In this document: positions 34,346 through 60,919 of the stretch, piece by piece
Numbering within the stretch: position 1 is the first letter of the stretch
Layout of the letters: every line of letters starts with the position of its first letter
Origin: Chlorella sorokiniana
Taxonomy: Eukaryota > Chlorophyta > Trebouxiophyceae > Chlorellales > Chlorellaceae
DNA length: 64,000 bases
Reading direction: 5' to 3'
Assembly: GCA_025917655.1 (NCBI GenBank)
Contig: CP084614.1
Coordinates: 1,612,001-1,676,000 of the forward strand
Made by a program: the position numbers and the translations under genes
The notes under the pieces: model-generated
The model's input: only the letters and a program-made list of their open reading frames with translations
Told to the model about the DNA's origin: nothing
The model's database searches: none

Positions 34346-37300
34346 TCATGCTTGCTGCATGCTGGACTGCTGCAAGCGGACCAGCACCCGCCGCCGGCAG
34401 CTCTTGGCCATGTACACCACGTCCTCCACACCGCACCGCGGCCGCCCTCGGGCCCGCTGCCGGCGCCGCCGCCCGCCTCGGCAATGCTGGCGTCGTCGGT
34501 GGAGCTGCCGATGGCGCGAGCCCAGGGAGCCAGGGGCAGGGGCTCGGGTGGCGGTGCAGCCCCTGGGGGAGGCGGCGGCGGCGCCTCGAGGCGCGTCAGG
34601 CGGCTGAGCGTTGTCACGGTGAGGCGGGCGGTTGCTGGGATGCTCACCAGGTCGTCCATTGCGCAGTTGGCTGCTGGGGGGGGGACCACAGGAGGCGTTC
34701 AGGCGATTGCTGTGGATAGGCCCAACATCATTTGCCGGCGGGCTGTCGCTGGGAGACGGGAGCGTGGGCCCGCGCTCCACCGGTCTCCACCTGCCCCTGC
34801 CTGCGCACTCACCAGTGCCGTCGTCCACCAGCAAGCCCCTCAGCAGCGTCAGCGCCTCCTGGACCACCCGCAGGCGCTGCTGCCACGCCGCCTGCTGATG
34901 CAGCAGCCCGCCGCCGCCGCCGCTGCTGCCGCCGCTGCTGCCGCCCGCCGCGGTGGGCCACTGCACGGGGCACAGCAGCATCATGCCCGCCTCATCTCCC
35001 GGCAGCGCCGAGGCCGCCTCCGCCAGCTGCACCAAGCGCTGCGCCAGCATGCAGCCGGGCGCGCCGCACGCGTCGTCCATCAGCAGGGCAGCCAGGATGC
35101 TGAGCTGGCGTTGCTCCCGCAGCATGGCCACCAGCTCCATGGCGGCTCGGGGTGCACAGCGCTGCACACGCGGCGGACGGCGGCGTGGGGCCACCCCCTA
35201 ACTGCATGGCATCGGGCTGTATGCTGGTGCCGGCGCCGGTGCTGGTGTTGGCGCTCGCCGGATCAGCAGCGCTGCCCGGGCCACCCAGCACAAAGCTGTC
35301 CAGAAGCCGCTCCGCAACCATGGCTGCGCCAAGCCACGGCCCCGCCTCCGCCTCCCCCACATCCATCTGCGCTGGCTGCTGCACGGCACCCCTGCCCCCG
35401 GGGGCACCGCCGCCGTCCCTAGCCGGGCTGCTGCTGCCGCCGGCGCCCTCCGCCCGCCGGTGGCCATGTTTGCGCTGGGGGCCCCGGCTCGCGCGGGCGG
35501 CGGCGGCCTGCGGCAGGCTGCCCTCAAACAGCGCCGCCAGCTGCGTGTCCTCCAGCAGCAGGTGCAGCAGGCGCAGGGCGGGCAGGCGCAGCGTGGGGCT
35601 GCCCATGAAGAGCTCCAGGGCGCCTGCGGCACAGGCAGAGCGCGATCAAACCGCCGATTGGCGTCAACGAGTGGCGCACCCAGGCTGACAAGGAGGCTCT
35701 GCCTGTGCAGCGGGTTGTGCCTGTGCAGAGGGCCGTCCAGGGCGCAGGGGGCAGAAGGGGGTGCAAACCTGAGGTGAAGACGGCGGCCAGCGGCGCCCGC
35801 GCCCCTCTCCCCGCAGAGCCTGCGCCAGCGCGCCCAGCGTGCCCAGCGCCCCAGCCGCCACCGCCTCGTGCTGCTGCCCCAGGCGCAGGGCGGCGGCAAG
35901 CACCACAGGCAGCAGGACGCCGCCGTCAGCGCCTCCTGGCAGGCCGGCAAATGCGGCCGCGTGTGCCTGCACCAGCAGCGCGGTGCCCGGCAGCGCCGGG
36001 GGCTGCCGCCCGGCTGCGGCGGTGACAGGCCGCAATGCACTATTGCTGCTGCCACACTGGAGCCGCTGCTGCTAGTGAGGCGCACCCTGCTGGACAAGCT
36101 GCGTGGCGCGGGTGGGCTGGCGAGGGCGACTGCATGAACACCGGAAGGCGCGGAAAGAGCCAGCGCCGCCGCCTGACACCCAGCATCCAGCTCCAACAAG
36201 TGCTGCGCCACCTGCAGCCCCGCCGCAATGAGGCACACCCGCTGCGCTGGCAAGCCGGCGGCTGGGCTGCCGCCGGCGCCGCCGTGCAGCTGCGCCAGGC
36301 TGGCAGCCGCCAAGCTGCCAATGCAGTCGAGCAGCGCCGCCGCCGGCAGCATGCCGCACGCCACCTGCTGCACGCGCTGAGAGAAGGCCGACACAAACAC
36401 CAGGCTGTCCCTGTCGGGGCCTGGGCTGCCAGCGCAGCCAGGCGCGAGCGCAGCAGCAGCGCGGTGCTTGCCGCTGCGGGGGCGCCGACCTCGGGAGCAC
36501 CGCTCTGCGCTGTGCCGCCAAGGAGCAGCGCCATGCTTGCGTGGCACGCCGCCATCAGCCTGGAGGGCAGGCTGGCGCTGCTCGTCAGGCTGCTGGCTGC
36601 AGCCAGCACAGCAGGGTCCATCAACGCCGCAGGGGCTGCCGCCTGAGGCTGCTCGGCTGGCGAGTCCCACCGTGCTTCTGACAAAGGCCGCTTGTGGCTG
36701 CCGCTGCGTTGTGCGGACGACTGGCCGGCGCTAGGGCGGCTGCACGTCGGGAAGCAAGGGGCACAAGCATGAGCAGGCGTGCTGTGCAGAGGCACCGTCT
36801 TGCGGTACGTGTTCAGAACCCACCCGTCTTGCTGCTGGTCGCCAGGGTGTGCCCTGCCGCTCCCCGTGCCGCTGGGCTGTGCAGCAGCCCCCACAGCCGC
36901 CGACGTGGCCGCTGCCGCCGCTTGACTCCCCGCCTGCTTCAGCTGCTCCCGCAGCTCCGCCGCGCTGGCCTCCGCCTGGCGCAGGCGCTCCGTGCGGTCG
37001 GCGTGCTGCCGCCGCAGGTCATCCATCTGCGGGCACTCCCAGCCGGCCAGCAAAAAGCGGCATGGGTGGTGTGTCGCAACGCGCAGCACCCACTGTGAGC
37101 CCAGCATCGCCTCCCTTAACACATGCTGACGTCGTACGAGCGTGCAGCTGTCCCGCAGCACCCACCTCCGACTCCTTGAAGGCCAGCTGGCGCTGCGCAG
37201 ACTCCAGCTGCTTCTGCAGCTCGCTGAGCGACAGGGAGCGGTGCATGGGCCCCCCCCCGCCCGCCTGCTGCGCCGCCGCCCGCTCCAGCGCCGCCTTCTG

Positions 37301-53124: not shown

Positions 53125-54201
53125 AGCCCGCCTGGCCATGAGCGCTGCGAGAACCGCCGCTTAGAAACCTTGCATGCTGAATGGCTGCCTAGATAGAACC
53201 TGCACACCGTACTGCTTTGTTGCTGTTTTGCAAAGGTTGCAAAGGAAAGAATGATGAGCAGGGGGCACAAGAGCAAGCACAAGACAGCTGCAAGCACAGT
53301 TCAGAAGTGTGCCTTGCTTCATGCCAAGGGTGTCTTTGTTCATATGCCTCGCTGCGCCAGCCGCTGATCACGAGGGATTGTTCCTATCCCGTTGGCAGCA
53401 TTCGGCGTCGTTGCTGTTGTTCAGCATGGCCGCCACAAGCAGCACCTGCAGGACAGGGTCTGTGCGCAGACGGCATGCCGCCAACGACGGCTTGACCTGC
53501 ATGCATGCTGAGGGGCAGCAGAAGCGAGTGGTTGGAGGAATGCAGGGCTTCAAAAGCGTGGCCAAGGCAGGGCCTGCTCCGCCTGACGCTCGTGTGTTGC
53601 CGGTGGCTTGGCTTGATCGGCTGCCCGGGCGGCAGCGCGCACAGTTGGCGGAGCGTCAGCGCCCCCTCTTGCGCACGGGGTATCTGTAGGATTACTGGCA
53701 GCTAGCCAAGCACTGCGCTTGCTGCGTCGCCGCCTGTCGTGGCAGGGCATGCACTGCAGCAGCCGAACTCAGGCGCTGGTGACGCTGCTTGACACGGTAG
53801 CGCTGGCGCAGGCACACACCTGTCACAACCAACCTCACACGCGCCGGCACTAGCTGTAGAACTGCAGCGAGCAGCAAGTTCCTTGCTGGTTGGCAGCCGA
53901 GTTGGCTGCCGACGCCTGTACAGCGCAGCGGCCGGCGCCCAGCATCCTTTGCTGCCCAGGTGGGCCGGCGGAGAGCCAGCTCAAGTGGCGCATCACAAAA
54001 AGGATGGCCGACAAACGCTTGGAACTGAGTTTGGCGGCTTGCAGTTTGCAGGAGTCGGGGGCTCGAGCCTCCCGCAGGCCGCCCTCGAGCCTCCCGCAGG
54101 CCGCCGTGGGCCACAACTTAATTACAAAACAGAATAAAAGTGATGCGACGAAAAGATCAACCAATAGGAGCAACGAATCAGAAGAACGATGCATGCACCA
54201 C
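53125..54201. other. Intergenic region left of the U2 inverted repeat
   Basis: Single-copy sequence with no supported exon. Near 54060-54100 there is a short direct repeat of CTCGAGCCTCCCGCAGGCCG. The last 100 bases before 54202 are AT-rich, and reverse-complement TGTAA falls at 54115-54119. Confidence 0.4.
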
Positions 54202-54212
54202 CCCATAAGGGA
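54202..54212 (+). promoter_or_regulatory. Candidate U2 upstream promoter element, left copy (CCCATAAGGGA)
   Basis: Lies 60-70 bases before the U2 start and 11 bases outside the duplicated arm. The same element (CCCATAACGGA) occurs at exactly the same distance upstream of the other U2 copy although the surrounding flanks differ. The 48 bases between the arm edge and U2 are GC-rich and TATA-less. Confidence 0.55.
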
Positions 54213-54271
54213 CCGCGTGCCATCCAGCCCCAGCGGCTGGGCCCGGCGTTCTGGCGCCACCCGAGTCAAGC

Positions 54272-54420
54272 ATACCTTTCTCGGCCTTTTGGCTAAGATC
54301 AAGTGTAGTATCTGTTCTAGTTAGTTTAACCGCTAACTTGAGAACCAATGGTTCTCATTCGGTTAAATTAATCTTTCTGGGCGCTGGCCCCAGGGCATTC
54401 ATGTCCTGGACCGGCATGTA
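54272..54420 (+). ncRNA. U2 spliceosomal snRNA, left copy
   Basis: The 5' end ATACCTTTCTCGGCCTTTTG, continuing GCTAAGATCAAGTGTAGTAT then CTGTTC, is the near-invariant U2 5' domain of plants and algae. GTAGTA at 54304-54309 is the branch-point recognition sequence. Then stem IIa (AGTTAG...CTAACT), stem IIb (TGAGAACC AAT GGTTCTCA), a pyrimidine-rich Sm-site-like stretch (AATCTTTCTGG), a short stem (TGGG...CCCA) and a terminal stem CCAGGGCAT/ATGTCCTGG. The 3' end is set by eye; total length is about 145-150, shorter than the usual 185-195. Confidence 0.95.
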
Positions 54421-54421
54421 T

Positions 54422-54450
54422 CTCATTAAAATGGCACAAACTTTAATGAG
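54422..54450 (+). terminator. Hairpin just after U2 (CTCATTAAA / TTTAATGAG)
   Basis: Perfect 9-base stem with an 11-base loop, starting next to the predicted U2 3' end and ending about 30 bases before the 3' end of the convergent protein gene. Might serve snRNA 3'-end formation or separate the two convergent transcripts. Identical in the right arm. Confidence 0.5.
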
Positions 54451-54481
54451 GTATAGCCTAACCCGTCACTTCTTCTCCATT

Positions 54482-55879
54482 TCAATCCATCATCTCCACT
54501 GCCGACTGTTGCCGCCGTCCGAGCACTATGTGTCCGGGAGTGCCGTGCCGCAGGCGCCGCCCCATCTGCTGCACGAGCAGATGCTCCAGAGTAGGGTGCA
54601 CTGCTGCCGCCTGCTTCTCCGTCTCAAACGGCTGGCCGGGCGCGGCCGCCATGTAGCAGGGGCCGCAGCGGCAGGGGCCCCGTCGACGTGCCCGCGCCCG
54701 TTAGCGGCGTGCTCCTCCGCCTGGGCCGCCACGCGCCGCCAGGAACTGCGGTGGGTGCGGGCGGGAGGGGATTTGGGGTGGGTGGACTGGGTCAGGCATG
54801 TTGCGCTGCAGCTCACTGGAACCGAATGCAAAGCAGCAACAAAACCCCCCATACCTCGCGGCTCGCCGCCAGGTCGATCCGCTTGCCCCTGGGCGGGGAG
54901 CGCAGCTGCCCCTGCAGCCGCGTGCCCGCCTGCCCTTGCACCCGCGACCTGCCCCCGCTGCCCAGCTGCATGTTCTGCTGCGCCGTCAGCACGAGGTAGA
55001 GCAGCGAGCAGACGAGGGGCAGCTGCGTCTGGTAACACAGCAGCGCCACCGCCCAGACGTGGTCCAGGTGGCCGCGCCACCAGTCCTCCAGGCCCACGGC
55101 CAGCGCCTGCGCCTGCGGCAGCCTGCATGCCTGGGTGGCGGTGAGGCCGCAGAGGGCGTGGCGCGGCACCGGCAGCAGCTCCTCCGCCGTCAGCGTGGCC
55201 GTCCCCGCCACGCCGCGCACGCCAAACCCCCACACGCGGCTCATCAGCACCGCCTCCTCGCTCTGGTGCTGGGGGTCGGTGATGGGCTCCGGCTCGGGGG
55301 CAGCACCGGCATCCCGTTTTGCCCTATCAACGCGTAGAGCGCCGCCGGCCCGCAGCCGGCCGAGCTGGGCTGCTGGCCGGGCTCGCGGGCCTTGCAGACG
55401 TACTGCGCGGTATAGGGTGGAAGGGGGGCAAGTTTGGGCTTTGCTTGGTGGGAGGCAATGGCAGACGGGCAAGCAGGTGACGGCTGGCTGGCAGCTGCGG
55501 CAACCAGCAACCTTGGCAGCCTACCTGAGGGGCGACGAGCCGCCTCGCATACTGCCTCACGCGCACCAGCAGCCCGTAGGTGGGCGTTGAAGGCGTGGAA
55601 AGAGCGCCGCACAAAGTGGTATGCCGCCGCCTCCTCCTCGGTGGCAAGGAGACGGGAGCAAAGGCTTGTGCAAAGGCTGGCCATCATCTGGCTGCATGGC
55701 AATTCACACACCTCATGTCTGTTGCCTGGAATCCCCACGGTCCATGGCCGCCGAAGCCCGCAGGAGCTCACTCCCAGCCACTGCGAGAGCAGCGGCCTGC
55801 CGCGCGGGCTCAGCAACAGGGCTGTCAGGTCTGGGCCCGCCTCCGCCTCCATCCGCTCGTACGACACCCGTTCCTCCAT
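54482..55879 (-). CDS. Unknown protein, left inverted-repeat copy (possible pseudogene)
   Basis: Reads MEERVSYERMEAEAGPDLTA, MMASLCTSLCSRLLATEEEA, YGLLVRVRQYARRLVAPQ, YVCKAREPGQQPSSAGCGPA with ALYALIGQN, PEPEPITDPQHQSEEAVLMS with RVWGFGVRGVAGTATLTAEE, GLEDWWRGHLDHVWAVALLC with YQTQLPLVCSLLYL, RGKRIDLAASRE, and an end GQPFETEKQAAAVHPTLEHL to SAVEMMD. No family recognised; the DHVWAVALL region is mildly hydrophobic. The ATG at 55879 directly follows CCCCGCAG, so a first exon may lie upstream (toward 56100). Frame breaks in the NAHL/TYGL and VLPP/PEPE regions are present in both copies. This copy lacks three bases in LLYL-VLTAQQ relative to the right copy and has P for L in RLPQAQA. Confidence 0.55.
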
Positions 55880-56294
55880 GCTGCGGGGGATGCGAGGCAG
55901 CGTCAGCGGCGGCATTCCAGCGCCGCTTTTCTTCTTGCCGCCGCGCCTTGCACGTGCACACACCGGTGGTACCTGGGCCTCTGTGCCCCGCCTCCCTCCC
56001 TCCGACTACTCACCTGGGGCCCGTCCAAGGGCGAGCAGAGCTGCCGGTGGCTGCAGAGCCCGGCTTGCTGCGAGGGGGAGCCCGGAGCAGGGCGCTTCCC
56101 TAGCGATCGGAGGAGGGTTTGGGGGTCAGCAAGCAGGTCCAACTACTATTGAAGGCGAGGGGAGGAGGCAGCACAGGGGCAGCCGATTCAAGCGCTTGGC
56201 ACCCGCTGCTCTGCTTCGTTTCGTTAAGATGTGAGATCAAACAGAGAAGGTCGCGATTGGGCAGAAAGTTGTTGTTGCTGGCTGCCGCTGGATG

Positions 56295-57848
56295 GCGGCA
56301 GGCGGCGGCTGAGGGTGGTCGCCGTGAGGCGGGCGGTTGCCGGGATGCTCACCAGGTCGTCCATGGCTGCGGGGGTGGGGCCAAAAGGCGTTCAGGCAGT
56401 TGCTGTGGATCATGTGCCCAGCAAAATTGCGCCGGGGGAGACGGGAGCTTGTGCCGACGCTGCACCAGCCCGGCCCGCCCCACCCTGCGCCCTCACCGGT
56501 GCTGTCGTCCACCAGCAAGCCCCTCAGCAGCGTCAGCGCCTCCTGAACCACCCGCAGGCGTTGCTGCCACGCCGCCTGCTGATGCAGCAGCCCGTCGCCG
56601 CCGCCGCCGCTGCTGCCGCCCGCCGCGGTGGGCACAGCAGCATCATGCCCGCCTCATTAGCGGGCAGCGCCGAGGCCGCCTCCGCCAGCTGCACCAGGCG
56701 CTGCGCCAGCATGCATCCGGGCGCGCCGCACGCGTCGTCCATCAGCAGGGCAGCCAGGATGCTGAGCTGGCGCTGCTCCCGCAGCCGAGCCACCATGCGG
56801 CTCCATGGCGGCTCGGGGGCGCACAGGCGCGGAGGACGGCGGCGTGGGGGCACCCCCAACTGCATGGCATTGGTCCCGGTGCTGGTGCTGCCGCTCGCCG
56901 GAGCAGCGGCGCTGCCTGGGCCACCCAGCACAAAGCTGTCCAGAAGCCGCTCCGCAATCACGGCTGCGCCGAGCCACGGCCCAGCCTCCGCCTCCCCCCC
57001 TCCATCTCCGCTGGCTGCTGCCCGGCACCTGCGCCACCCTCGGGGCACCGCCGCCGTCCCTGGCCGGGCTGCTGCTGCCGCCGGCGCCCTCCGCCCCACC
57101 GGTGGCCGCGTTTGCGATGGGGGGCTCGGCTCACCGCGGGCGGCGGCGGCCTGCGCCAGGCTGCCCTCAAACAGCGCCACCAGCCCAGCAGGAGGTGCAG
57201 CAGGCGCAGGGAGGGCAGGCGCAGCGTGGGGCTGCCCATGAAGAGCTTCAGCGTGCCCAGCGCCCAAGCTGCCACCGCCTCGTGCCGCTGCCCCAGGCGC
57301 AGGGCGGCGGAAAGCACCACAGGCAGCAGGACGCCGCCGCCAGCGCCTCCTGGCAGACCGGCAAATGCTGCCGCGTGTGCCTGCACCAGCAGCGCGGTGA
57401 CCGGCAGCGCCGGGGGCTGCCGCCCGGCTGCGGCGGTGACAGGCCGCGATGCACTGGAACCGCTGCTGCTGGAGAGGTGCACCCTGCTGGACAGGCTGCG
57501 CGGTGCGGGTGGGCTGGCGAGGGCGCCGGCGAGAACGCCAAGGGGCACGGAAGGAGCCAGCGCTGCTGCCTGGCGCCCAGCATCCAGCTCCAACAAGTGC
57601 TGCGCCACCTGCAGCCCCGCCGCAATGAGGCGCACCCGCTGCGCTGGCAAGCCGGCAGCGGGGCTGCCGCCGGCAGCATGCCGCACGCCACCTGCTGCGC
57701 GCGCTGAGAGAAGGCCGACACAAACACCAGGCTGTCCCTGTCGGGGGCCTGGGCTGCCATCACAGCCAGGCGCGAGCGCAGCAGCAGCGCGGTGCCGCCA
57801 TGCTTGTGGAGGGCAGGCTGGCGCGTCCCACCGTGCTTCTGACAAAGG
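56295..57848 (-). pseudogene. Degenerate partial copy of the coiled-coil/helical-repeat gene
   Basis: Corresponds to about 34590-36690 in the same orientation. Shared blocks include RLRVVQEALTLLRGLLVDD, LLHQQAAWQQ, ALPANEAGMMLL (GDEA in the original), LREQRQLSILAALLMDD, AERLLDSFVLGGPGSA and FMGSPTLRLPSLRLLHLLL. It is about 550 bases shorter: an internal intron (original about 35630-35820) and adjacent codons are gone, as are part of the LEDTQLAALF segment and several other blocks. Intron-like sequence near 56370-56493 is kept, so this is not a processed copy. It lacks the N-terminal acidic and coiled-coil exons and the last exon. It fills the spacer between the two inverted-repeat arms. Confidence 0.85.
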
Positions 57849-58012
57849 CGGGTGCCACCAGCCGAGTTGCAGCGGCTGGGATTCCCCTACTTGCGCTGCC
57901 CTGTCCTGAAATGCCTTGCCCTGCCTACTGCCCGCATCTGTAACCTGCACCTTACTGCCACTCAGTCTCAGGCCAAAAGGTTGGACAACAATGCCTGGCT
58001 CCACTGCTGGAT

Positions 58013-58073
58013 GCCGCCGCCGCCTGCCGCCGCCGCCTGCCGCCGCCGCCTGCCGCCGCCGCCTGCCGCCGCC
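58013..58073. repeat. 13-base tandem repeat GCCGCCGCCGCCT (x4) at the inner IR edge
   Basis: Four exact units and a partial fifth. The corresponding left inner edge (56290-56312, GGCGGCAGGCGGCGG) carries about one unit in inverted orientation, so the array marks the inner boundary of the right arm. Confidence 0.92.
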
Positions 58074-58508
58074 AGGCCCATCCAACATGCAACAACAACC
58101 CAACAATTCTTGACCAATCACGACCTTCTATGTTTGATCTCACAAATTTAACGAAACGAAGCAGAGAAGCTTTCTCGACCCGGGTGCCAAGCGCTTGAAT
58201 CGGCTGCCCCTGTGCTGCCTCCTCCCCTCGCCTTCAATAGTAGTTGGACCTGCTTGCTGACCCCCAAACCCTCCTCCGATCGCTAGGGAAGCGCCCTGCT
58301 CCGGGCTCCCCCTCGCAGCAAGCCGGGCTCTGCAGCCACCGGCAGCTCTGCTCGCCCTTGGACGGGCCCCAGGTGAGTAGTCGGAGGGAGGAGGCGGGGC
58401 ACAGAGGCCCAGGTACCACCGGTGTGTGCACGTGCAAGGCGCGGCGGCGGCAAGAAGAAAAGCGGCGCTGGAATGCCGCCGCTGACGCTGCCTCGCATCC
58501 CCCGCAGC

Positions 58509-59909
58509 ATGGAGGAACGGGTGTCGTACGAGCGGATGGAGGCGGAGGCGGGCCCAGACCTGACAGCCCTGTTGCTGAGCCCGCGCGGCAGGCCGCTGCT
58601 CTCGCAGTGGCTGGGAGTGAGCTCCTGCGGGCTTCGGCGGCCATGGACCGTGGGGATTCCAGGCAACAGACATGAGGTGTGTGAATTGCCATGCAGCCAG
58701 ATGATGGCCAGCCTTTGCACAAGCCTTTGCTCCCGTCTCCTTGCCACCGAGGAGGAGGCGGCGGCATACCACTTTGTGCGGCGCTCTTTCCACGCCTTCA
58801 ACGCCCACCTACGGGCTGCTGGTGCGCGTGAGGCAGTATGCGAGGCGGCTCGTCGCCCCTCAGGTAGGCTGCCAAGGTTGCTGGTTGCCGCAGCTGCCAG
58901 CCAGCCGTCACCTGCTTGCCCGTCTGCCATTGCCTCCCACCAAGCAAAGCCCAAACTTGCCCCCCCTTCCACCCTATACCGCGCAGTACGTCTGCAAGGC
59001 CCGCGAGCCCGGCCAGCAGCCCAGCTCGGCCGGCTGCGGGCCGGCGGCGCTCTACGCGTTGATAGGGCAAAACGGGATGCCGGTGCTGCCCCCGAGCCGG
59101 AGCCCATCACCGACCCCCAGCACCAGAGCGAGGAGGCGGTGCTGATGAGCCGCGTGTGGGGGTTTGGCGTGCGCGGCGTGGCGGGGACGGCCACGCTGAC
59201 GGCGGAGGAGCTGCTGCCGGTGCCGCGCCACGCCCTCTGCGGCCTCACCGCCACCCAGGCATGCAGGCTGCTGCAGGCGCAGGCGCTGGCCGTGGGCCTG
59301 GAGGACTGGTGGCGCGGCCACCTGGACCACGTCTGGGCGGTGGCGCTGCTGTGTTACCAGACGCAGCTGCCCCTCGTCTGCTCGCTGCTCTACCTGCGCG
59401 TGCTGACGGCGCAGCAGAACATGCAGCTGGGCAGCGGGGGCAGGTCGCGGGTGCAAGGGCAGGCGGGCACGCGGCTGCAGGGGCAGCTGCGCTCCCCGCC
59501 CAGGGGCAAGCGGATCGACCTGGCGGCGAGCCGCGAGGTATGGGGGTTTTGTTGCTGCTTTGCATTCGGTTCCAGTGAGCTGCAGCGCAACATGCCTGAC
59601 CCAGTCCACCCACCCCAAATCCCCTCCCGCCCGCACCCACCGCAGTTCCTGGCGGCGCGTGGCGGCCCAGGCGGAGGAGCACGCCGCTAACGGGCGCGGG
59701 CACGTCGACGGGGCCCCTGCCGCTGCGGCCCCTGCTACATGGCGGCCGCGCCCGGCCAGCCGTTTGAGACGGAGAAGCAGGCGGCAGCAGTGCACCCTAC
59801 TCTGGAGCATCTGCTCGTGCAGCAGATGGGGCGGCGCCTGCGGCACGGCACTCCCGGACACATAGTGCTCGGACGGCGGCAACAGTCGGCAGTGGAGATG
59901 ATGGATTGA
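58509..59909 (+). CDS. Unknown protein, right inverted-repeat copy (possible pseudogene)
   Basis: Mirror image of 54482-55879. Exon ends are legible here: QWLG before GTGAGC, then MMASLCTSLC after GCCAG; RRLVAPQ|GTAGGC to CAG|YVCKAREPG; GKRIDLAASRE|GTATGG to CAG|FLAARVAAQ. The tail PFETEKQAAAVHPTLEHLLV then QQMGRRLRHGTPGHIVLGRR ends with the stop at 59907-59909. To stay open the coding sequence needs one base changed in AACGCCCACC and one in CTGCCCCCGAG, exactly as in the left copy. No family recognised. The gene faces out of the repeat and converges on U2. Confidence 0.55.
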
Positions 59910-59940
59910 AATGGAGAAGAAGTGACGGGTTAGGCTATAC

Positions 59941-59969
59941 CTCATTAAAGTTTGTGCCATTTTAATGAG
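59941..59969 (-). terminator. Hairpin just after U2, right copy
   Basis: Mirror of the 54422-54450 hairpin; same 9-base stem and 11-base loop, between the unknown gene's stop and the U2 3' end. Confidence 0.5.
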
Positions 59970-59970
59970 A

Positions 59971-60119
59971 TACATGCCGGTCCAGGACATGAATGCCCTG
60001 GGGCCAGCGCCCAGAAAGATTAATTTAACCGAATGAGAACCATTGGTTCTCAAGTTAGCGGTTAAACTAACTAGAACAGATACTACACTTGATCTTAGCC
60101 AAAAGGCCGAGAAAGGTAT
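59971..60119 (-). ncRNA. U2 spliceosomal snRNA, right copy
   Basis: Reverse complement of the left U2, with the 5' end at 60119 (GGTAT on the plus strand). I see no base difference in the RNA region between the two copies. The two U2 genes point toward each other across the repeat. Confidence 0.95.
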
Positions 60120-60178
60120 GCTTGACACGGGTGGCGCCAGAACGCCGGGCCCAGCCGCTGGGGCTGGCTTCTCATGAC

Positions 60179-60189
60179 TCCGTTATGGG
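60179..60189 (-). promoter_or_regulatory. Candidate U2 upstream promoter element, right copy (CCCATAACGGA)
   Basis: Read on the minus strand, 11 bases outside the right arm and 60-70 bases before U2, matching 54202-54212 at 10 of 11 positions while neighbouring bases differ. Confidence 0.55.
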
Positions 60190-60919
60190 AAGCACAGTGT
60201 TACATTGAAGCCCAACACCCGCACTGCATGCATGGCTCCACTCCTTTTGATTTCATGTCGAATCATAAGGATCAGGATGCGTGGAATGTGCTTCTTCAGC
60301 CTTGCCGCCCAGCCTCAGACAGCTTCACCAGCCGGGTCGTGACGGTGCGGTCCCCTTCTGATGCCTTGCGCTGGTGCTCCGTGACTGCGCTTGAGCAGCG
60401 TGGCCAGCATGATCACTTGCTGCTGCGTATTAGAAACAACCAGGACCGTCGAGCAAAGGTACCTTGATTTTGTAGGGCTTGTGTGGACGGGATGGGGCGG
60501 TGGGCTTGCAAGCGGCACCGCCGCCCGGCACTTCCCTGTCCCGCCGTGCCCGCGGTCGCATGCATGACTGATCAATCCACGAAAGATTGCAGGCTTTGCG
60601 CCGACTCAGGAGGCCAGGAACGCAGTAACACAGTGGGCATCACCTTCTCTTTGCTGCCATCGGCCACCCTGGCACATGCCCAACCATCAAGCGCATTTGC
60701 TCGCGACCTTTGCTTACAAACATATTGTCCAGGCTCTGAAGCACGATCGAATGATGGGACCGCCTGCATTGGCGCCGTGAAGCAGAGCTCTCTCTCTTCT
60801 TTATTTTGGGCCTCTTGAAGCGGCAGTGCAGGCTATCGCTCTGCCAGGAACTCTTGAAAGAAGCGCTTTGACGCTGCACATATCCCCCAGCACTAGCACA
60901 TTCTGACCCCGCCACAGAG
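60190..60919. other. Intergenic region right of the U2 inverted repeat
   Basis: Single-copy sequence with no supported exon or RNA gene; it should contain the promoter of the next gene. Confidence 0.4.

Follow-up and report, generated by a model that had tools for sequence, protein, structure and literature searches.

The U2 small nuclear RNA (snRNA) genes of primates, RNU2, undergo concerted evolution: copies within a genome are kept alike, and the title of an RNU2 study cited there speaks of remodelled junctions with the flanks (PMC4291461). Mammalian sex chromosomes carry palindromes whose inverted arms are near-identical through arm-to-arm conversion (PMC3723533, PMC8981503). In plants, different snRNA genes have one upstream element in common (PMC545797). 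Mobile elements have also been tied to small-RNA genes, namely the Dada DNA transposons (PMC3706591) and the Utopia and Keno non-long-terminal-repeat (non-LTR) retrotransposons (PMC4640811). In this article, we describe a mirror-image pair of U2 genes in the green alga Chlorella sorokiniana, within a 64,000-nucleotide stretch of contig CP084614.1 (positions 1,612,001 to 1,676,000; assembly GCA_025917655.1), which we call the window. The window belongs to contig C6; the genome comprises 38.8 Mb in 15 contigs, and the G+C content of the window is 62-72% per 2 kb. We discuss how the two arms of the pair were probably homogenised, the upstream element that the U2 genes share with other snRNA genes, and a decayed gene family that recurs at snRNA loci.

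The U2 mirror pair

The pair consists of two inverted arms, each with one U2 gene:

54224..56205, plus strand: left arm, near-identical core, 1,982 bases
58181..60167, minus strand: right arm, near-identical core, 1,987 bases
54272..54461, plus strand: U2 snRNA gene, left copy, full length (Rfam RF00004, 130.9 bits)
59930..60119, minus strand: U2 snRNA gene, right copy, identical RNA (Rfam RF00004, 130.9 bits)

The cores pair as six inverted blocks that are 96-100% complementary. In an exact comparison they differ by 2 substitutions and 6 insertions or deletions, in all 11 letters over ~1,980 aligned bases, and these 8 places are distributed along the length of the arm. When the diverged inner edge is included, identity is 97.96% over 2,108 columns. 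In a self-comparison of the whole window (E <= 1e-5, low-complexity filter on), the U2 arms are the sole inverted match longer than 80 columns. An earlier, sequence-only reading had described near-identical reverse-complement arms and had proposed such a self-comparison; the arms are borne out, and the outer coordinates that it gave, 54224 and 60167, are exact. Its claim of sharp outer edges stands in part: identity is lost abruptly there, but a common promoter element sits beyond the edge. The mirror pair is real within the present assembly.

Both U2 copies match positions 1-192 of RF00004, at a score far above the gathering score of 46. The genes face inward and are convergent, with 5.5 kb between their 3' ends, so that the inward-facing gene predicted for each arm is confirmed on the plus and the minus strand. 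A U2-model search of the genome (46 of 122 candidates scored) returned two genes above the cut-off, both in the mirror pair; the best remaining match reached 18 bits (E = 4), below the cut-off. The U2 DNA, used as a query across the genome, matched nothing besides the two copies. The comparison with U2 genes elsewhere in the genome that the sequence-only reading had suggested thus turned up no others in either search. The locus is the genome's detected source of U2 genes, with two predicted U2 transcription units in mirror image, and a role of the pair in dosage is plausible because its copies are the only U2 genes detected.

Homology beyond the identical core

The arms are bordered by regions that are related to very different degrees:

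56206..56332, no strand assigned: diverged inner flank of the left arm
58033..58180, no strand assigned: diverged inner flank of the right arm, with a short stretch in common with the family copies on C3 and C1 (U5), absent from the left arm
54201..54208, plus strand: promoter-like element CCCCATAA, 71 bases upstream of the left U2 gene and beyond the identical arm
60183..60190, minus strand: promoter-like element TCCCATAA, 71 bases upstream of the right U2 gene and beyond the identical arm

At the inner edge, similarity fades across ~130 bases. Without a simple repeat, the inner flanks align with 66 matches, 9 mismatches, and 21 gap columns, the gaps lying mostly at the alignment ends; their divergence differs from that of the core at p = 3.7e-12 (Fisher test). 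With the simple repeat, the alignment scores 146, against a best score of 102 for 1,000 stretches drawn at random from the window's first 52 kb. The original homology extended past the core, since the right inner flank shares a piece with the C3 and U5-locus copies of the decayed gene family treated below, a piece that the left flank lacks. On the inner side, then, the inverted arms are far more alike than the homologous flanks, which is the mark of a gene-converting palindrome. On the outer side, homology consists of a single common 8-mer, YCCCATAA, and the linker between this 8-mer and the arm differs between the two U2 copies.

The 8-mer recurs at other snRNA genes. It was counted seven times in seven stretches (120 kb), and six of the seven lie 67-71 bases before U1, U2, U4, and U5 genes (n = 6): 71 bases at both U2 genes, and 67-70 at the U1, U4, and U5-like genes, where the distance for U5 uses an estimated start of the RNA. 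Because of this placement, YCCCATAA is very likely an upstream promoter element of snRNA genes. A U6 gene on C4 carries it as well, together with a TATA-like sequence.

A probable homogenised inverted duplication

These features lead us to think that the locus probably arose as an inverted duplication long ago and that gene conversion later homogenised its core; conversion as the cause of the near-identity is what we infer from the contrast between core and flanks. Among the three options that the sequence-only reading had offered, gene conversion between the arms is the one favoured by a near-identical core within diverged homologous flanks. An older inverted duplication would have carried a U2 gene, its promoter, and a linked orphan gene. 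Both promoter elements would have retained their positions while the surrounding DNA drifted. Ectopic gene conversion, in at least one event and perhaps repeatedly, would then have overwritten ~2 kb of one arm from the other, in a tract that starts 48 bases ahead of U2, spans the decayed gene, and stops at the 5' end of that gene. As an effect, the two U2 copies would remain identical, and the presumed benefit would be a supply of enough identical U2 RNA. Selection at the protein level does not explain the identity of the arms, because the frame changes of the decayed gene are common to both.

A second inward-facing mirror pair in the genome, formed by two U5-like genes, gives a similar picture and counts in favour of conversion:

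C1:768681-772007 (L033, L034), inward-facing: U5-like mirror pair surrounding an array of ~80-bp tandem repeats

The two genes are inverted within 3.3 kb. Arm identity starts close to, or exactly at, the RNA start as estimated; the promoter element lies outside, equidistant in both arms. The second copy is 95% alike to the first, and a DNA search of the genome found no further U5-like copy.

Several points weigh against homogenisation by conversion, or against its recurrence. Past YCCCATAA the outer flanks have no significant similarity, and the outer side of the argument rests on one element. The U5 arms are much less alike than the U2 arms (987 matches, 35 mismatches, 89 gap columns). Their genes match the U5 Rfam model over positions 21-57 only, at 37.9 and 33.1 bits, below the cut-off of 40; the genes are named U5-like on account of a conserved loop, the promoter element, and our reading of the structure. 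Finally, a single copying between two pre-existing diverged family copies would give the same pattern as recurrent conversion.

The next best explanation is a recent inverted duplication of one 2-kb block, in which the arms would be alike through youth and without conversion. It accounts for the near-identity and for the abrupt loss of identity at the outer edges. Yet it leaves unexplained the clear, if diverged, homology past the inner edge, as well as a promoter element equidistant outside the block at both copies. Plain youth is disfavoured because homology continues past the inner end of identity, and we regard this option, also among those offered earlier, as unlikely.

Near-identical inverted repeats are a classic source of misassembly, and the second arm might in principle be such an artefact. 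The arms differ at 8 spread-out places, the outer flanks are different, and the inner flanks are diverged; moreover, the 38.8-Mb, 15-contig assembly has other inverted snRNA copies (U5, and U6 on C9). An artefact is accordingly very improbable. Least credible of all is a regulatory device yielding long double-stranded RNA: complementary arms would pair if transcription read through them, but the convergent U2 genes are short, their 3' ends lie kilobases apart, and the inner gene is decayed.

A decayed gene family in the arms

Each U2 gene has beside it what appears to be a decayed member of an orphan gene family with introns:

54477..56226, minus strand: decayed family copy in the left arm (profile match and left-arm frames)
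58141..59914, plus strand: decayed family copy in the right arm (DNA profile match, with frame changes)

The profile that gave these coordinates included the right-arm copy itself. The gene reads outward, tail to tail with U2, and a by-eye reading of the sequence finds intron-like gaps with GT-AG ends. The sequence-only reading had seen the same outward-facing protein gene in each arm. A copy is indeed present in each and does face outward, but it is decayed: the right-arm gene has frame changes inside exons 2, 3, and 4, and the left-arm frames agree. Between the arms, the blocks in which these places fall are 100% identical.

Database searches place the family in isolation. Pfam returned nothing for seven reading frames from the arms, the spacer, and the right flank, and 0 families for a 630-residue read-through of C3-1, one of the copies on contig C3. 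The sole database relative is a protein of 439 residues, P0001, 51% identical over 64% of the searched part (7,996 candidates scored); a protein search with a five-row profile found P0001 again as its sole match (7,993 candidates scored). Pfam on P0001 gave three matches, all below the cut-off (XRCC4, DUF4481, CCD97-like) and none of them a reverse transcriptase. A sequence search of the PDB found no solved relative up to E = 1, and plasmid records and viral contigs held no relative. An AlphaFold2 model of P0001, with one aligned sequence from the window, had a mean predicted local distance difference test score of 42 and was unusable.

Comparison of the copies points to a former protein gene. 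Exons 1-3 of C3-1 and the window copy are 70-76% alike and the introns 38-57%; the exception to this order is the comparison of two C3 copies, in which intron 3 is 82% alike and exon 1 is 63%. Because exon similarity mostly exceeds intron similarity, we conclude that the family was formerly a genuine protein gene. The ratio of nonsynonymous to synonymous substitution rates (dN/dS) between copies is ~1 (0.91-1.27 in four comparisons), a value that strong base-composition bias may distort and that, taken alone, would mean no constraint. Together with the frame changes present in all three copies examined, it makes these copies look decayed or relaxed.

Family copies near other snRNA genes

The family is found near other snRNA genes. 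A genome search with the arm gene found two copies on C3, which by the DNA profile lie downstream of U1 at distances of ~0.8 and ~6.8 kb; this U1 gene is the only one found above the cut-off (41 of 617 candidates scored). Between these two, both nearly complete, lies a third copy, inverted and internally deleted; all three follow U1 in the region C3:3721026-3730868 (L031, L032). At the protein level, a whole-genome search gave 19 matches, on C3 and C6 only.

The DNA profile of the family, built from the two C3 copies and the right arm, extends this distribution. By this profile, each U5 arm contains the 5' end of the family (E = 1.1e-40 and 1.7e-35) and, with weaker scores, the reversed 3' end (E = 7.4e-10 and 1.6e-5); the latter value, in the right arm, is near the noise level and does not fall below 0.001 with a profile of the C3 copies only. 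The profile also picks up a piece near U4, 0.35 kb from its 3' end; one U4 gene was above the cut-off (41 of 989 candidates scored):

L037 4729-4970, convergent with U4: family piece near the only U4 gene found (E = 1.7e-13)

With the C3-only profile, the window arms score E = 1.8e-236 and 8e-226, the U5 5' ends 1.7e-43 and 1.7e-36, the U4 piece 4.8e-8, and the U5 3' end, in the left arm only, 5.3e-5. Among reversed decoy sequences there was one match (E = 0.05). In a check with less bias, a segment of the U5 locus was compared with the whole genome; besides itself, it matched its mirror counterpart and the copy on C3 that lies ~6.7 kb from U1, and nothing else. This search is insensitive, having missed C3-1 and the window copies. 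The U4 piece matches itself only, and the U4 link is the weakest. At U6 loci, the DNA profile gave no match above noise. A fragment (exon 3) at C10:345407-345742 (L041; E = 4.3e-24) has no recognised snRNA nearby, as Rfam on its 9-kb stretch gave nothing up to E = 0.5.

Family sequence is thus known from five locations. Three, including the starting point, can be assigned firmly to snRNA loci, a fourth weakly, and the fifth not at all. The three Sm-class loci besides U2, with 10 kb on each side, make up roughly 0.15% of the genome by our estimate. The U5 and U4 loci were examined for their snRNA genes, which favours the detection of family pieces there, and the list of remnants is a lower bound, since the whole-genome family searches missed the U5 and U4 pieces. 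The orientation of the family varies: it points away from U1 and toward U2 and U4, and both of its ends occur in the U5 arms.

Some candidates were set aside. Weak matches at C1:1359344, C2:1452546, C4:2790416, C7 (two), C8, C10:2184168, and C10:1611687 lie within the repetitive C-terminal part and were left out of the count. A comparison with very permissive settings was dropped in favour of the profile search, as it gave many matches among unrelated G+C-rich stretches. A match near U6 (L038 8832-8690, E = 8.5e-5) was taken as noise, an unrelated place in the window having scored 8.8e-5.

What the shared neighbour could be

A dispersed snRNA cluster or an element that tracks snRNA genes could explain the shared neighbour. 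The first is possible, if short of an even chance: U1, U2, U4, U5, and the orphan family would once have formed one cluster, which broke up while relics of the family travelled with each snRNA gene. The places where family sequence lies (U1, U2, U5-like, and, less clearly, U4) count in its favour, and there are precedents in the U1-U4 and U2-U5 clusters of Arabidopsis (PMC545797) and the U3-U5 linkage of Euglena (PMC2784804). Against it, the four genes are found on four different contigs.

Less probable, in our judgement, is that the family is the relic of a selfish element that landed beside snRNA genes with the upstream element, the inverted repeats being by-products of insertion and rearrangement. 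The same distribution suits this idea, as does the internally deleted and inverted copy on C3, and target-specific elements for snRNA genes are known (PMC3706591, PMC4640811). On the other side, neither a transposase nor a reverse transcriptase was recognised by Pfam in the C3-1 read-through or P0001, the loci of U1, U2, U4, and U5 have no insertion end or orientation in common, the copy number is very low, and the C10 fragment lies apart from any recognised snRNA.

It is a speculative proposal, and on balance a doubtful one, that the orphan family tracks Sm-class snRNA genes (U1, U2, U5, and weakly U4) and builds or exploits mirror duplications there. If true, it would represent a new selfish element associated with snRNA loci or a true snRNA-linked gene in the course of decay; it would lie beside intact snRNA genes and not within them, which sets it apart from Dada and Utopia. 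Shared by three or four distinct snRNA loci, the decayed neighbour could reveal a lost snRNA cluster or a new class of snRNA-homing element, and the link between the orphan family and snRNA loci is the part of this work most deserving of attention.

The spacer and U6 loci

Between the arms lies one further feature:

56304..57795, no strand assigned: spacer between the arms, a degraded direct copy (84-92%, in three pieces) of window positions 34599-36467

The source region, 34599-36467, is ~20 kb away in the same window. Elsewhere in the genome, C4:2006301-2010843 (L038) holds a full U6 gene beside eight tandem units of ~555 bp, each with a 64-base piece of U6, and a similar piece occurs at C8:1530347. 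At C9:782917-796310 (L035, L036), three U6 copies of equal score lie in direct and inverted repeats that are 99.5-99.8% identical. YCCCATAA was not found in the 110 bases inspected at these three copies, which are possibly pseudogenes carried by the repeat.

Comparison with known systems

In the literature on snRNA inverted pairs, linked families, targeting elements, and promoters, the arrangement was not described in the titles or abstract openings of the matches listed, all from open-licence sources. The orphan family resembles Dada in having intron-bearing genes tied to small-RNA genes and internally deleted derivatives. Dada elements insert within the RNA gene, produce duplications of 6-7 bp, and encode a DDE transposase (PMC3706591); here, by contrast, the Rfam matches of U1, U2, and U4 span the whole model, and a DDE transposase with zinc fingers is indicated by no Pfam family and no solved relative, although a decayed, divergent transposase could escape such a search. 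With Utopia and Keno, the family shares an association with U2 genes. Those elements encode a reverse transcriptase and insert into U2 (PMC4640811), whereas neither trait is seen here, Pfam scans of the C3-1 read-through and P0001 having found no reverse transcriptase. The varied arrangement of the family argues against a simple target-specific insertion such as Dada or Utopia.

The U2 mirror pair itself is most likely a small variant of the known concerted evolution of snRNA genes. It shares with RNU2 the likeness of copies within a genome, but RNU2 is a tandem array (PMC4291461) and the present U2 genes are just two copies in mirror image. It shares with the sex-chromosome palindromes near-identical inverted arms, but those palindromes are large (PMC3723533, PMC8981503) and the present pair is 2 kb, around an essential RNA gene. 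The pair would be a minimal natural case of apparent concerted evolution, with two identical, mirror-arranged copies of an essential splicing RNA and a second such pair, U5-like, in the same genome. As in plants, one upstream element is common to different snRNA genes (here U1, U2, U4, U5, and the C4 U6), but the plant upstream sequence element reads RTCCACATCG and that of this genome YCCCATAA. Linked snRNA genes likewise occur in plants (PMC545797), whereas the present link joins snRNA genes to a protein-gene family.

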